DNA from: a virus
Direction: 5' to 3' (one strand)
IMG/VR virus record: IMGVR_UViG_3300017917_001318
Span: 1-23,950 of that record
DNA length: 23,950 nucleotides
The notes under the pieces are model-generated. The model was not told the DNA's origin. It made no database searches and saw only the letters and a program-made list of their open reading frames with translations. This document shows, one piece after another, positions 3,511-10,686 of the stretch. Position 1 is the first letter of the stretch; each line of letters starts with the position of its first letter. Both the position numbers and the translations under genes were made by a program.

Positions 3511-5895
3511 ATGGCTATTATACAAATTTCAAAAATACAAGTAAGGTCTGGTGATCTTGTTGATTTACCTCAACTGGATGAAGCAGAGTTTGGTTTTGCA
3601 AATGATGAAAAACGATTGTTTATCGGCAAGACAGAACCAAATGAAAATGTAGAAATACTTACCTCTTATTCAAGCTTAGGATTCAGCCAAATAGATGGTG
3701 CCAATGGAGCTAACTTAAGTTTAAGTAGTTTTGAAGATGGACAAGTATTAGTAATTAGTGATATTGGAGGCAACGTCAATGTAACCAACCGAGGTGGCAC
3801 AAAAGGTGGTAATATCAATTTGGGTTACATGTCTGATGTTATCATTTATGGTGGGTCAAGTGGACAAGTTCTAACAACTGATGGTACTGGGAATTTAACT
3901 TGGACATCAGGTGGAGGAGGCGGTGGGGGAAGTCCAACAGGATCAAATAGAGATGTTCAGTTTAATGATGGTGGAACATTTGGTGGTGTAGGAACCTTTC
4001 AATTTGATAAAATCACAGGACTTGTAACAATAACAAATAATTTAAGTGCAGGCAATGTTAGTGCAACAGGATTAACAGGAACATTAAGCACAGCAGCACA
4101 ACCAAATATCACTTCAGTAGGCACATTAACCTCACTTGGAGTATCTGGAACAGTAACAGCAAGTAGATTTGTAAGCAATGTTGCTGATGGTACTGCTCCA
4201 TTTACAGTAACATCAACAACACAAGTTGCAAATTTAAATGTTGCTACAGCGGGTACTGCAGGTACCGCGACAAGTGCAACAAACGCAAGTGCACTATTAC
4301 AAAATACGAGCGTAAGCACAACTGTTTATCCTACATTTACAACTTTAGGAAGTAACGGCAACAGTCAGGCTGTTTTTAATACAAGTATAACTGCTAATTT
4401 AGCCAATGCAAGTATAACAGCAACAACATTTGTTGGTGCATTAAGTGGAGCAGCTACAAGTGCATCTACAGCAGGAACTGTTACTACAGCAGCACAACCA
4501 AATATCACTTCAGTAGGCACATTAACCTCACTTGGTGTTTCTGGAAATATTACTTCAGGTAATATAGCTGTTACAGGTAACATAAAATTAAATGGTGCAA
4601 ACATTACTGCAAATGGTGCAGACGGAAATATTTTCACAATTGGTGACATTGCATGTAAAAGTTTAAATGCAAATGGCTTAGGAGTTTTGTATGCAAATGG
4701 ATTAATTACAGCAACAAGTGTTGCAGTAGGTTCACCAGGTAATGTAGTTTTATATCAGAATGGTAATATATATGGTGCAGGAGATACAGTTATTGCAGGT
4801 AACTTAACTGTAGAAGGGGCAAAAGCTAATTTAGGTCCAGTTGCCAATGTTATTATAGAAGGTGGTGTAAATGGTTATTCTTTAATTACTGATGGTACAG
4901 GTAATTTAAGTTGGGCAAATATTTCAGGATCTGGTAATGGTACTCCGGGTGGATCAAACACACAAATCCAATTTAATGATGAAAATAATTTCGCTGGATT
5001 CGTTGGGTTCACTTTTGATAAAATAAGTGGTAATTTTGCTGTACCAAATAATGCTAGTTTCGGTGGCAATATAACATTTGGTAACAGTTCTGCTTCAAAT
5101 ATTTCATTAATATTTAATGATGGTAATGGTGTAGGGACAACAACTGGCGTTATTTACACCGCATCTCCTGAAAGTATGGCTATTAGGCTTAATAATTCTA
5201 ACAGACTTTCAATAACAAATAGTGAAAATACATTACTAGGTAATCTGTTACTAAGTACAGGTAATTTGCATGTTGGAACAACAGGGACTTTTGAACTTGC
5301 AAACGCAAATGCTTCAACGATTCAAGCATTTGGCAATGCAAGTGCCATCGCTATAGGTAAAGCAGGAAGCACGGTTACTCTACGGGGTAATATTGCTGTT
5401 GATAAATCAATTAATTTTGTAGATACTGTTGTACCCAATACCGATACTTCAATTTATTATGCAGCAAGTCCAGAAGGAATTTACACAGTAATTAATAACT
5501 CCACTAAGTTTGTAATTGGCAACGCAGGTGGATCAATTAATTATGGCAATTTTACAGTAATAGGAAATAGTCTTGGTTATGGTTCAGGATCAGGTGGTAC
5601 AGTTACACAAGACACGTCTAGAACCACTTCTGTAACATTAAATAAACCAACAGGTAGTATTCAGTTATTTAATGCAGCAGGTGCAACTAGTTGGACTTCT
5701 TTTACTGTTAATAATAATTTAGTGGCTGAGACAGATACAATTATTGTGAACCAAAAATCAGGAAGTAATCAGTATCAAATTTTTGTAACACAGATTACTT
5801 CAGGAACTTTTACAATTACTTTTGCTACTACAGGTGGTACAACAACTGAACAGCCTATATTTAACTTTAATGTTATCAAGGGTGTAACATCGTAA
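3511..5895 (+). CDS. Large repetitive tail fibre / receptor-contact protein
   Basis: The 794-aa product is Gly, Asn, Thr and Ser rich. Residues 1-45 (QISKIQVRSGDLVDLPQL, then EFGFANDEKRLFIGK) resemble the N-terminal attachment domain of phage tropism determinants and fibres. A module with QVLTTDGTGNLTW, a Gly linker and DVQFNDGG starts near residue 114 and recurs near 451 (SLITDGTGNLSW, then IQFNDENNF). A second unit, AAQPNITSVGTLTSLGVSG, occurs twice at about residues 196 and 328, from a 50-bp exact DNA repeat. The last 95 residues (TVTQDTSRTTSVTLNKPTG to INFAVIK-like NFNVIKGVTS) match a beta domain common at the ends of phage tail proteins. It is probably a trimeric fibre that contacts the host. 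Which T4 fibre it replaces cannot be told from sequence alone. Confidence 0.85.
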   Translation: MAIIQISKIQVRSGDLVDLPQLDEAEFGFANDEKRLFIGKTEPNENVEILTSYSSLGFSQIDGANGANLSLSSFEDGQVLVISDIGGNVNVTNRGGTKGGNINLGYMSDVIIYGGSSGQVLTTDGTGNLTWTSGGGGGGGSPTGSNRDVQFNDGGTFGGVGTFQFDKITGLVTITNNLSAGNVSATGLTGTLSTAAQPNITSVGTLTSLGVSGTVTASRFVSNVADGTAPFTVTSTTQVANLNVATAGTAGTATSATNASALLQNTSVSTTVYPTFTTLGSNGNSQAVFNTSITANLANASITATTFVGALSGAATSASTAGTVTTAAQPNITSVGTLTSLGVSGNITSGNIAVTGNIKLNGANITANGADGNIFTIGDIACKSLNANGLGVLYANGLITATSVAVGSPGNVVLYQNGNIYGAGDTVIAGNLTVEGAKANLGPVANVIIEGGVNGYSLITDGTGNLSWANISGSGNGTPGGSNTQIQFNDENNFAGFVGFTFDKISGNFAVPNNASFGGNITFGNSSASNISLIFNDGNGVGTTTGVIYTASPESMAIRLNNSNRLSITNSENTLLGNLLLSTGNLHVGTTGTFELANANASTIQAFGNASAIAIGKAGSTVTLRGNIAVDKSINFVDTVVPNTDTSIYYAASPEGIYTVINNSTKFVIGNAGGSINYGNFTVIGNSLGYGSGSGGTVTQDTSRTTSVTLNKPTGSIQLFNAAGATSWTSFTVNNNLVAETDTIIVNQKSGSNQYQIFVTQITSGTFTITFATTGGTTTEQPIFNFNVIKGVTS
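4090..4139 (+). repeat. 50-bp direct repeat, copy 1, inside the fibre gene
   Basis: This is exactly identical to 4486-4535. It encodes TAAQPNITSVGTLTSL in frame in both places, so the fibre contains a duplicated module and the two copies could recombine to shorten or lengthen it. Confidence 0.9.
4486..4535 (+). repeat. 50-bp direct repeat, copy 2, inside the fibre gene
   Basis: Exact second copy of 4090-4139, offset by 396 bp (132 codons), so recombination between the copies would keep the reading frame. Confidence 0.9.
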
Positions 5896-7782: not shown

Positions 7783-8088
7783 ATGGCGCAGACTTTACCT
7801 ATTCAGACACAAACTGAAGTAGCTGTCCTTCAAGTTCAATTTAAAAATTTAGACGAAAAAGTTGATGATTTAAAAGTTGAATTGAAGGACATGCGTTCCT
7901 CACTAGAAAAACATAGTGAGGAACACAGTGCTTTAATGAAAGAAATGCAAGAATCAGCACAAGAAGCACATAAAAGCATGGCAAGTAAAATAAATGCACT
8001 AGAAAAATGGCGTTGGATGTTAATGGGCGCAGGAGTAGTTATAGGTGCATTAGGTTGGCCCACTATTGGAAAATTATTAAGTGGTTAA
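7783..8088 (+). CDS. Coiled-coil protein with one C-terminal membrane segment
   Basis: The product is 101 aa. Residues 10-72 form a clear coiled coil with heptad hydrophobic spacing (VAVLQVQFKNLDEKVDDLKV and following), and residues 76-97 (WRWMLMGAGVVIGALGWPTI) form one hydrophobic helix. This layout matches XhlA-like haemolysin/holin-associated proteins and many small phage membrane proteins. It lies two bases after a virion gene, has no good Shine-Dalgarno, and precedes the adhesin genes. It could take part in lysis or be a minor virion membrane-contact protein. The topology is visible; the function is inferred. Confidence 0.75.
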   Translation: MAQTLPIQTQTEVAVLQVQFKNLDEKVDDLKVELKDMRSSLEKHSEEHSALMKEMQESAQEAHKSMASKINALEKWRWMLMGAGVVIGALGWPTIGKLLSG

Positions 8089-8109
8089 AAAATTTTGGAG
8101 TAACTGAAA

Positions 8110-9159
8110 ATGGCATTATGTTCAACTGGATGTATGAGTATGGGGGGTAGTGATGCCCCTCGTAGTATTAATTGTGAACTAGGCGTACCAGGTAGTTCTA
8201 CTATATGTTTAAATAGTCCAACTGTACGAACTTTGGCTGGAGTTCCAGCTGGGGCAATTAGTTTATGTAACTTTTATGGTAAGGCAAATGCTCCTTACAG
8301 TGTTGAGTATTTGGTACTTGCAGGTGGCGGTAGCTCTAAATGCGCGGTAGGTACACCAAGTGGAACGCCCTCAATTAATGCTGGTTCAGGTGCCGGAGGA
8401 TTGGTAACCGGAAATTTTGGAGTTACATCAAATCAGGCTATTTGCATACAAGTGGGTGCAGGAGGAGGGAGCGGAACTAATGGGACTAATTCCTGTTTAG
8501 GGTGTTTTAAGACAACATGCGGAGGCGGTTCAGGTGGAGGTGGGGTTGGAACTCCAAGTGGTACAAGCTTACCTGCATGTTGTGGTGGTTCAGGTGGAGG
8601 TGCAGGATATGTCTTTGCGTTCGGGGCCATATATCAAGGTGCTTGTTCAATAAATAATGAAGGTAATTGTGGGGGCGGGTTTGGAAATCCAGGCGGGTAT
8701 GGAAGTTTAGCTGGAGGTGGAGGAGGTAGATCCACAGCTGGTGGATTTGCAGGAATTGGTGGTGGAGCTGGTGGACAAGGATGCTTTTATCCATTTAATC
8801 AAGTATTTTCATTAGGCCCACTTAGTGGAGGATGTTACTGGATTGCAGGCGGTGGAGGTGGAGGTGGCGGTGGTGCATATGGTGGTGGAGCTGGTGGTTT
8901 AGGTGGGGGCGGAAGCGGATCTTATTCTACATCAAGTGCTCAAGTTGGGCAGGCAGGTCAAGCAAACACAGGTGGTGGAGCTGGTGGAGGTACTGGGTGT
9001 GCCCCTGCGGCCGCAGGTGGAAGTGGGTCGGTATTTTTAAGATATCCGTCAAATATAATTGATGCACCTGCAACAACAGGAAGCCCATGTTATTGCTGTA
9101 CAGGTGGATACAAATATTATTGGTTTAGAGGATCAGGGTCAATTACTTTGTGTTGTTAA
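8110..9159 (+). CDS. Cysteine- and glycine-rich tail fibre adhesin, copy 1
   Basis: The product is 349 aa. Residues 1-58 are a docking module (MALCSTGCMSMGGSDAPRS to SLCNFYGK) of the RSINxELG...VRTLAGVxxGAISLxNFYGK type, common in marine phage fibres. The rest is a Gly-rich domain starting VEYLVLAGGGSS, with runs of up to nine Gly, as in gp38-like polyglycine adhesins that sit at fibre tips. About 22 cysteines are present, with CYCCTGG near the end and CC at the C-terminus. GGAG at 8097-8100 supports the start. A paralogue follows in tandem. The family-level role in host recognition is likely; the receptor is unknown. Confidence 0.85.
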   Translation: MALCSTGCMSMGGSDAPRSINCELGVPGSSTICLNSPTVRTLAGVPAGAISLCNFYGKANAPYSVEYLVLAGGGSSKCAVGTPSGTPSINAGSGAGGLVTGNFGVTSNQAICIQVGAGGGSGTNGTNSCLGCFKTTCGGGSGGGGVGTPSGTSLPACCGGSGGGAGYVFAFGAIYQGACSINNEGNCGGGFGNPGGYGSLAGGGGGRSTAGGFAGIGGGAGGQGCFYPFNQVFSLGPLSGGCYWIAGGGGGGGGGAYGGGAGGLGGGGSGSYSTSSAQVGQAGQANTGGGAGGGTGCAPAAAGGSGSVFLRYPSNIIDAPATTGSPCYCCTGGYKYYWFRGSGSITLCC

Positions 9160-9228
9160 ATATAACATGAAGTCTATGTTTTTGTTTTGAAGTTTTTGTA
9201 GTTTATAAAGGAATTAGTAAATGGCATT

Positions 9229-10254
9229 ATGTTCAACTGGTTGTATGAGTATGGGGGTAGTGATGCCCCTCGTAGCATCAATTGTGAACTCGGAGTACCA
9301 GGTAGTTCTACTATATGTTTAAATAGTCCTACTGTACGAACTTTGGCTGGAGTTCCAGCTGGGGCAATTAGTTTATGTAATTTTTATGGTAAATCTAACC
9401 AAATTCCTTTAAGTGCAGATATTTTGGTAGTTGCAGGTGGGGGTGGAAATTGGACTGGTGTGTCAGGAGGTTCTGGTGCAGGAGGTGTATTAATGTGTTG
9501 TTCAATCGGACCACCTACTATAACAAGATGCACGAGCTATTCCATTCAAGTTGGGGGTGGGGGTGGATGCAATTCTCGTGGTACAAGTTCTTGTTTTTTT
9601 AGTATTGTAACATGTGGAGGAGGAGGGGGAGGACACTACACACCAAATCCAGTGGCTCCCTTTGCGCAGGGCTGTTTATCTGGACAGGCAGGTGGATCAG
9701 GGGGTGGAAGTAATTATTCCCCTACATCGTTTGGTTGTGCTGTAAACAATTGTCTAGAAGGAAGAGAAGGTGCAGGATCAGGACCAGGCGGTGGTGGGAG
9801 TTATTGTGCAGGAGGAGGTGGAGGTAAATCAGCAGCAGGAGGCAACCCAGCAGGAGGTCAAGGATGTTTTTATCCTATCACTCAAGCAGTTAGTCATGGA
9901 GATTTGAGAAACGGATGTTATTGGGTAGGTGGCGGAGGTGGAGGCACGCAAGGAAGGACTAATCCTCCAGGTAGACCAAATGGTGGATTCGGTGGAGGGG
10001 GAGATTCGGGTTTTAATGTTGGTCCAAGTTATTGTGGAGGATGTCCAGGAATGACTAATACCGGTGGTGGTGCAGGGGGCGGAGGAGGAGGGTACACTGT
10101 ACCTTCAGGGGGAAGTGGTGTTGTGTTGATTAAGTATAATTCTGGATTACCTGATGCATGTACTACTGGCACACCTTGTTATTGTTGTACAGGGGGATTT
10201 AAGTATTATATATTTAAAGGTTCAGGCACAATAGCTTTTTGTTGTACAACTTAA
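9229..10254 (+). CDS. Cysteine- and glycine-rich tail fibre adhesin, copy 2 (frameshifted 5' end)
   Basis: This is a tandem paralogue of the preceding adhesin with the same docking module, Gly-rich core, GQGCFYP and GCYW motifs and CYCCTGG end, and about 25 cysteines if the ancestral start is restored. The natural start is the ATG at 9221, with AAGGA at 9208-9212, which begins MALCSTGCMSMG as in copy 1. However, a run of five G (9253-9257) replaces the six G of copy 1 (8142-8147), so that frame stops at 9320-9322 after 33 codons. The given coordinates use the ATG at 9229, which reads in frame as MFNWLYEYGGSDAP. Sequencing error, variation between phage genomes, or slippage on the G-run are all possible. 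Confidence 0.8.
   Translation: MFNWLYEYGGSDAPRSINCELGVPGSSTICLNSPTVRTLAGVPAGAISLCNFYGKSNQIPLSADILVVAGGGGNWTGVSGGSGAGGVLMCCSIGPPTITRCTSYSIQVGGGGGCNSRGTSSCFFSIVTCGGGGGGHYTPNPVAPFAQGCLSGQAGGSGGGSNYSPTSFGCAVNNCLEGREGAGSGPGGGGSYCAGGGGGKSAAGGNPAGGQGCFYPITQAVSHGDLRNGCYWVGGGGGGTQGRTNPPGRPNGGFGGGGDSGFNVGPSYCGGCPGMTNTGGGAGGGGGGYTVPSGGSGVVLIKYNSGLPDACTTGTPCYCCTGGFKYYIFKGSGTIAFCCTT
9253..9257 (+). other. Five-G tract that decides the frame of adhesin copy 2
   Basis: With six G the ATG at 9221 would read through the whole gene; with five it ends after 33 codons. A ribosome with Gly-tRNA on GGG at 9254-9256 could slip back one base to GGG at 9253-9255 and then read GGT AGT GAT, giving the same MGGSD sequence as copy 1. 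No classical tandem-slip heptamer is present. Confidence 0.85.
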
Positions 10255-10256
10255 TA

Positions 10257-10277
10257 AAAGGAATTAGAAAATGGCAT
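10257..10277 (+). repeat. Relic of a third adhesin start region
   Basis: This stretch matches the ribosome site and start of copy 2 (9207-9227) at 20 of 21 bases, including AAAGGAATTAG and ATGGCAT. After ATGGCAT the match ends, and only a 34-codon open frame follows. It looks like the front end of a third adhesin gene cut off where the minus-strand block begins. Confidence 0.65.
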
Positions 10278-10286
10278 ATGCCATTT
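10269..10286. repeat. 18-bp perfect palindrome between convergent genes
   Basis: AAATGGCAT/ATGCCATTT is its own reverse complement and lies between the ends of the plus-strand adhesin and the minus-strand NUDIX gene. It could work as a weak two-way terminator hairpin, although without a loop it would need to open at the centre. It also marks the point where the adhesin-like sequence stops. Confidence 0.55.
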
Positions 10287-10686
10287 ATAATTTTGTAGTA
10301 ACAAGTAAAAGTTTTTCTTTTACAATATCAAAATTTATGGTATTGAATAATCCAGGATGTAATGGTTTGGGATAATAGTTGTTCCCTACCCAAGCATATC
10401 CACAATGTTCATTATTTAAAATTGGTATAAATTCATTCTCTACTTCACAAAAGAAAGTATGATAAACAAATTCTTTATTAACAAATTGTTGTATGGGAAT
10501 TAACTTACAATCATTTATGTTGTAATTTATTTCTTCAATACACTCTCGGCTTAATGCTTCAAATAATGTTTCATTTTTTTCAACTTTACCACCTGGTATA
10601 CTCCAACTGGGAGTTTTATCTGTACGCAACAAATAAAGAAAACGGTTGGTATTTTTACTGTAAAAAAATATGCCTGCTGATTGCAT
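10285..10686 (-). CDS. NUDIX hydrolase
   Basis: The product is 133 aa. The NUDIX box G-x5-E-x7-RE-xx-EE is present at G33, E39, R47, E48, E51 and E52 (PGGKVEKNETLFEALSREC), with the usual Gly near its end replaced by Asn54. These enzymes hydrolyse nucleoside diphosphates linked to another group, such as oxidised or modified nucleotides, NAD-type molecules or capped RNA. The substrate cannot be read from the sequence. It is the last gene of the minus-strand block, 18 bases after gp15. No Shine-Dalgarno is seen; a partial late-like sequence GATAAATC lies just upstream. Confidence 0.88.
   Translation of the reverse strand: MQSAGIFFYSKNTNRFLYLLRTDKTPSWSIPGGKVEKNETLFEALSRECIEEINYNINDCKLIPIQQFVNKEFVYHTFFCEVENEFIPILNNEHCGYAWVGNNYYPKPLHPGLFNTINFDIVKEKLLLVTTKL

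Follow-up and report, generated by a model that had tools for sequence, protein, structure and literature searches.

A one-G difference places the conserved start of the second of two tandem phage surface-protein genes out of frame

Two tandem genes for glycine- and cysteine-rich surface proteins stand side by side in a virus fragment from IMG/VR, which we analysed over its whole length of 23,950 bases (the window), and the second of them (copy 2) has one G fewer than the first (copy 1) in a G-run near its start. Is copy 2 a broken gene, an intact gene misread, a gene that works from another start, or a gene that can be turned on and off? The frame difference between the copies is real in the assembled sequence, and a recheck returned the same G-run coordinates and the same codon counts from the two starts as the original prediction had given (Table 1). 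That prediction offered assembly error, standing variation or an on/off switch as explanations. These were the right set to weigh, with the switch left unsupported. We consider it probable, with some reserve, that copy 2 is a redundant paralogue that has undergone a recent, ordinary one-base deletion in the sampled phage.

Table 1. Features of the two-gene locus, with their positions in the window
Feature	Position	Strand	Basis or remark
Two-gene cassette, approximate extent	8089..10284	+	2-85 bp gap here in relatives
Copy 1, glycine- and cysteine-rich surface protein, intact, 349 aa	8110..9159	+	ORF; PHROG 2295; in-frame family N-terminus
Six-G run of copy 1, within the M11-G12-G13 codons	8142..8147	+	Sequence
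SD-like AAAGGA of copy 2	9207..9212	+	8 nt to ATG 9221, 16 nt to ATG 9229
Copy 2, frame from the ancestral start, 33 codons, MALCSTGCMSMGVV... then TAA (9320-9322)	9221..9322	+	
Copy 2, open frame from ATG 9229, 341 aa	9229..10254	+	PF21722 Gly_rich_2 above cut-off
Five-G run of copy 2 (ATGGGGG), one G fewer than in copy 1	9253..9257	+	Sequence, family comparison
20/21 repeat of the copy 2 SD and start (9207-9227)	10257..10277	+	Runs into perfect palindrome AAATGGCATATGCCATTT; repeat and palindrome together 10257-10286

The N-terminal domain that both copies share belongs to an unnamed phage family with M[T/A/P]L..SG.[I/M]S.GG at its start and LAGVPSGAIS..NFYGK at its end, whose annotated members include proteins of Pelagibacter phage HTVC008M, Vibrio phage 1.081.O and Rhizobium phage Pasto. 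A profile scan yielded 86 such domains from 84 sources, both window copies counted in; the IMG/VR loci among them are the best 80 of 200 by score, a set that favours intact copies and holds some near-duplicates. All 84 domains from outside the window (including the best 80 of 200 IMG/VR loci) have M[T/A/P]L..SG.[I/M]S, or a motif close to it, in frame from the initiator codon, and the sole exception in the collected set, its IMG/VR part again being the best 80 of 200, is copy 2 of the window. Within the 38 aligned relatives, S6 occurs in 37, G7 in all 38 and S10 in 35. Copy 1 matches the family over all 60 residues of the domain (residues 1-60) and carries the motif in frame from its initiator methionine, with T in place of S6 (MALCSTGCMSMGGS). 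At the six-G run it reads ATGGGGGG. Copy 2 as assembled lacks the in-frame motif and matches the family from residue 12, the one-base difference having shifted its 11 conserved N-terminal residues into another frame; it fits the motif only if read from 9221 as far as the G-run. The domain core, residues 12-60, is present in both copies (E 1e-28 and 3e-23), and the closest other N-terminal domain found among the best 80 of 200 IMG/VR loci is 60% identical.

The substitutions that separate the two copies bear on the same frame. Up to codon 58 there are eight, one upstream of the tract and seven downstream, and all eight are synonymous in the full-length frame of copy 1 (P about 1e-5 if random). 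The upstream change lies in codon 7, GGA in copy 1 (A8130 region) and GGT in copy 2 (at 9241); it leaves the protein unchanged in the 9221 frame but turns M into L in the 9229 frame, and as the only substitution on that side of the tract it makes the selection test weak there. This silent pattern shows purifying selection: since the duplicates parted, both have for most of the time been constrained as proteins in the full-length frame, so the one-base difference is either recent or not real. Taken with the in-frame family motif, it also indicates that copy 2 began at 9221 and that its five G represent a recent loss or an error. The six-G frame is thus ancestral and copy 2 as assembled is without its conserved start, in agreement with the original prediction. 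The break in copy 2 is derived and probably recent, unless it is an undetected sequencing slip.

Could copy 2 nevertheless work from ATG 9229, its altered first eight residues being tolerated? That frame is open for all of its 341 codons and retains domain residues 12-60, and beyond the first eight residues (MFNWLYEY), which are unlike the family, the remainder of the product matches it. However, the good ribosome site previously claimed for ATG 9221 holds up: the spacing of the SD-like AAAGGA suits that start and not ATG 9229, which lies 16 nt from it with a better-placed ATG 8 nt upstream. Moreover, the 9229 product (MFNWLYEYGGS) has N, W and E at family positions S6, G7 and S10 and so loses three near-invariant residues, and the single substitution upstream of the tract alters a residue in this frame. 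We therefore regard use of the 9229 start as improbable.

If the true sequence had six G, copy 2 would be intact and would agree fully with both the family and the silent-substitution pattern. The tract is a homopolymer and lies inside, or on the border of, a 140-nt repeat with 96% identity to copy 1, and it is possible that the assembler swapped reads between these near-identical 5' ends. On the other hand, five G are short for a homopolymer error, and no other frameshift was found: 23 other genes of the window, those with comparable relatives, align to them in one frame over about 20 kb, and they contain 103 homopolymers of 5 nt or longer (35 being 6 nt or longer), none with a frameshift. 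This count makes a generally error-prone assembly unlikely, and we rejected that version on the whole-window frame check, which does not by itself reject a single error. A single error is possible mainly because the tract sits at the edge of the near-repeat, where reads could be exchanged, and we judge a sequencing or assembly error rather unlikely overall, although it ranks second after a real deletion. Searches for other alleles of the locus returned no DNA match in phages and none by pattern in IMG/VR.

The genomic setting shows that the gene pair is an insertion. The cassette is flanked by convergent genes, one coil/holin-like (7783-8088, + strand) and one NUDIX (10285-10686, - strand), and it is absent from about 75 relatives of these neighbouring genes, in which the flanking gene ends lie 2-85 bp apart. 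In two near relatives (L004 and L005), the gap is filled by a terminator-type hairpin, TTGAGGGGC...CCCCTCAA; the window has the two genes instead. The repeat and palindrome that follow copy 2 are possibly the remnant of a third copy, a terminator, or both, and suggest a tandem array whose copy number has risen and fallen. In such an array, loss of frame in one copy may be tolerable because copy 1 remains.

The deletion that we favour would have proceeded as follows. Copy 2 is a tandem paralogue of copy 1, with its ancestral start at ATG 9221 and the conserved attachment-domain start MALCSTGCMSMGGS, and its short G-run encoding Met-Gly-Gly would then have lost one base, throwing that start out of frame. 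As assembled, most initiation would occur at 9221 and yield a dead 33-residue peptide, and weak initiation at ATG 9229 would at best give a protein with abnormal first eight residues, while function can rest on the intact copy 1. We infer both that the deletion is real, not an error, and what it does to expression.

Full-length protein could in principle also be made from the five-G gene by -1 frameshifting, programmed or leaky, or by transcriptional slippage at ATG_GGG_GTA. As originally predicted, a -1 slip on GGG would restore the copy 1 N-terminus exactly; tRNA-Gly would re-pair with a second GGG and the product of the five-G template would carry MALCSTGCMSMGGSDAP. There is a precedent in a frameshifted viral gene that is rescued elsewhere through low-level slippage on a G run (PMC5009743). 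However, the site contains no X_XXZ_ZZN heptamer, since the following codon GTA cannot re-pair on GGT, and only a G_GGG tetramer is present. In a systematic test in E. coli, G_GGG gave no true frameshifting and the signal of G_GG.G was ascribed to SD-like initiation (PMC4066793), so the only slippery motif present here is not shifty in that host. The downstream RNA (9258-9340, 83 nt) folds no better than shuffled sequences (z -0.22) in a pseudoknot-free model. Five G are also short for transcriptional slippage. Programmed frameshifting was rejected on motif, downstream fold and literature, and we hold recoding or slippage at this site to be extremely unlikely.

In both copies the G-run could pair, as the 5' arm of a hairpin, with the GCCCC that follows it (8139-8164 and 9250-9274), giving 11 pairs in copy 1. 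Such a hairpin might make slippage during replication easier or influence translation.

A contingency locus, in which the G-run would gain or lose a base at a high rate and turn copy 2 on and off, would fit paralogues that differ in the run by exactly one G, and the run lies within the potential 11-pair hairpin, which could promote slippage. The likeness to phase-variable homopolymer loci is that a one-base change in a G-run shifts the frame of a surface-protein gene. Copy 2 differs from them in that its tract of five is not conserved and no length variants were seen in IMG/VR. Typical phase-variable tracts are longer than 5-6 G, and the caution in the original prediction that the tract is short for classical phase variation was well placed, with five or six G here and G-runs close to codon expectation. 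In relatives the same codons mostly have 2-3 G, so the tract is not conserved in the family. Three relatives (L101, L103 and L133) do have six G (ATG GGG GGC), and each of these genes is intact. A scan of relatives for a five-G allele of the ATG GGG GGC type found none. The two genes together contain 13 runs of at least 5 G, and synonymous-codon shuffling gives about 6 per gene (about 12). Because the G-run falls on the Met-Gly-Gly codons of the conserved motif, it follows from codon choice. A phase-variable tract was rejected on the tract lengths of relatives, the G-run expectation and the five-G allele scan, and a contingency locus appears most improbable. The broader idea of a slippage-tuned pair is very improbable too; here the short G-run of the attachment domain would decide which of the two cysteine-rich adhesins is displayed, through a change in the DNA tract or low-level ribosomal slippage. 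The host-range switch proposed earlier is accordingly not supported, given a 5-nt, unconserved tract with no other allele found in IMG/VR and no recoding signal found.

What the proteins do is partly indicated by their architecture. PHROG 2295, which carries no assigned function, matches both glycine-rich bodies (E 7e-19 and 6e-25), and PF21722 Gly_rich_2 matches copy 2 (27.8 bits against a cut-off of 24.3). For copy 1, Pfam gave nothing at E 0.001. A sequence search of PDB chains gave no match, and predicted structures gave no fold match for the N-terminal domain (pLDDT 74) or for the full-length protein, whose model was poor (pLDDT 50). With the polyglycine gp38 adhesins of T-even long tail fibres the pair shares glycine-rich motifs and a likely place among tail-tip proteins, but it has no sequence match to them in the PDB and no fold match, the full-length model being poor (pLDDT 50). 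The label 'adhesin' in the original prediction is therefore plausible from the glycine-rich architecture only, as neither structure nor function yielded a match in its favour.

The 60-residue domain is widespread in phages (L087-L166), matches no Pfam entry as it stands in copy 1, and is fused to diverse bodies, including glycine-rich ones, short proteins of about 190 aa and an 800-aa protein. Its occurrence on such different bodies suggests a modular attachment domain. Each glycine-rich protein of the window (8110-10254) has 22-23 cysteines (6.3-6.7%), and the other virion proteins of the phage have almost none. Many of these cysteines are common to both copies, and in both the N-terminal domain has cysteines at several positions where relatives have other residues. 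Furthermore, a protein on an otherwise different phage contig (L170, 6263-7156) has the same cysteine-rich C-terminus, TTGSPCYCCTGGYKYY, with 65% identity over 52 residues.

Regarding the phage itself, Agrobacterium phage Atu_ph07 has, among named phages, the sheath-stabiliser gene nearest to its own. One relative with 76% identity (L080) sits on a 349 kb contig. The window phage is likely a large myovirus. A search of a genome collection found three weak relatives, in MAGs. A long protein encoded at 3511-5895, starting MAIIQISKIQVRSGDLVDLPQLDEAEFGF, has conserved ends and a divergent middle (52-55% identity to L003 and L004), which marks another variable region.

It would be notable for a phage to carry a contingency switch within its own adhesin, but the evidence points elsewhere. 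For annotation, copy 2 should not be entered as intact, with 9229 as its natural start. If the one-base difference is real, the locus captures a phage surface protein after duplication, at a moment when one copy is losing its frame or is soon to regain it, and this is the expected behaviour of redundant host-recognition genes.
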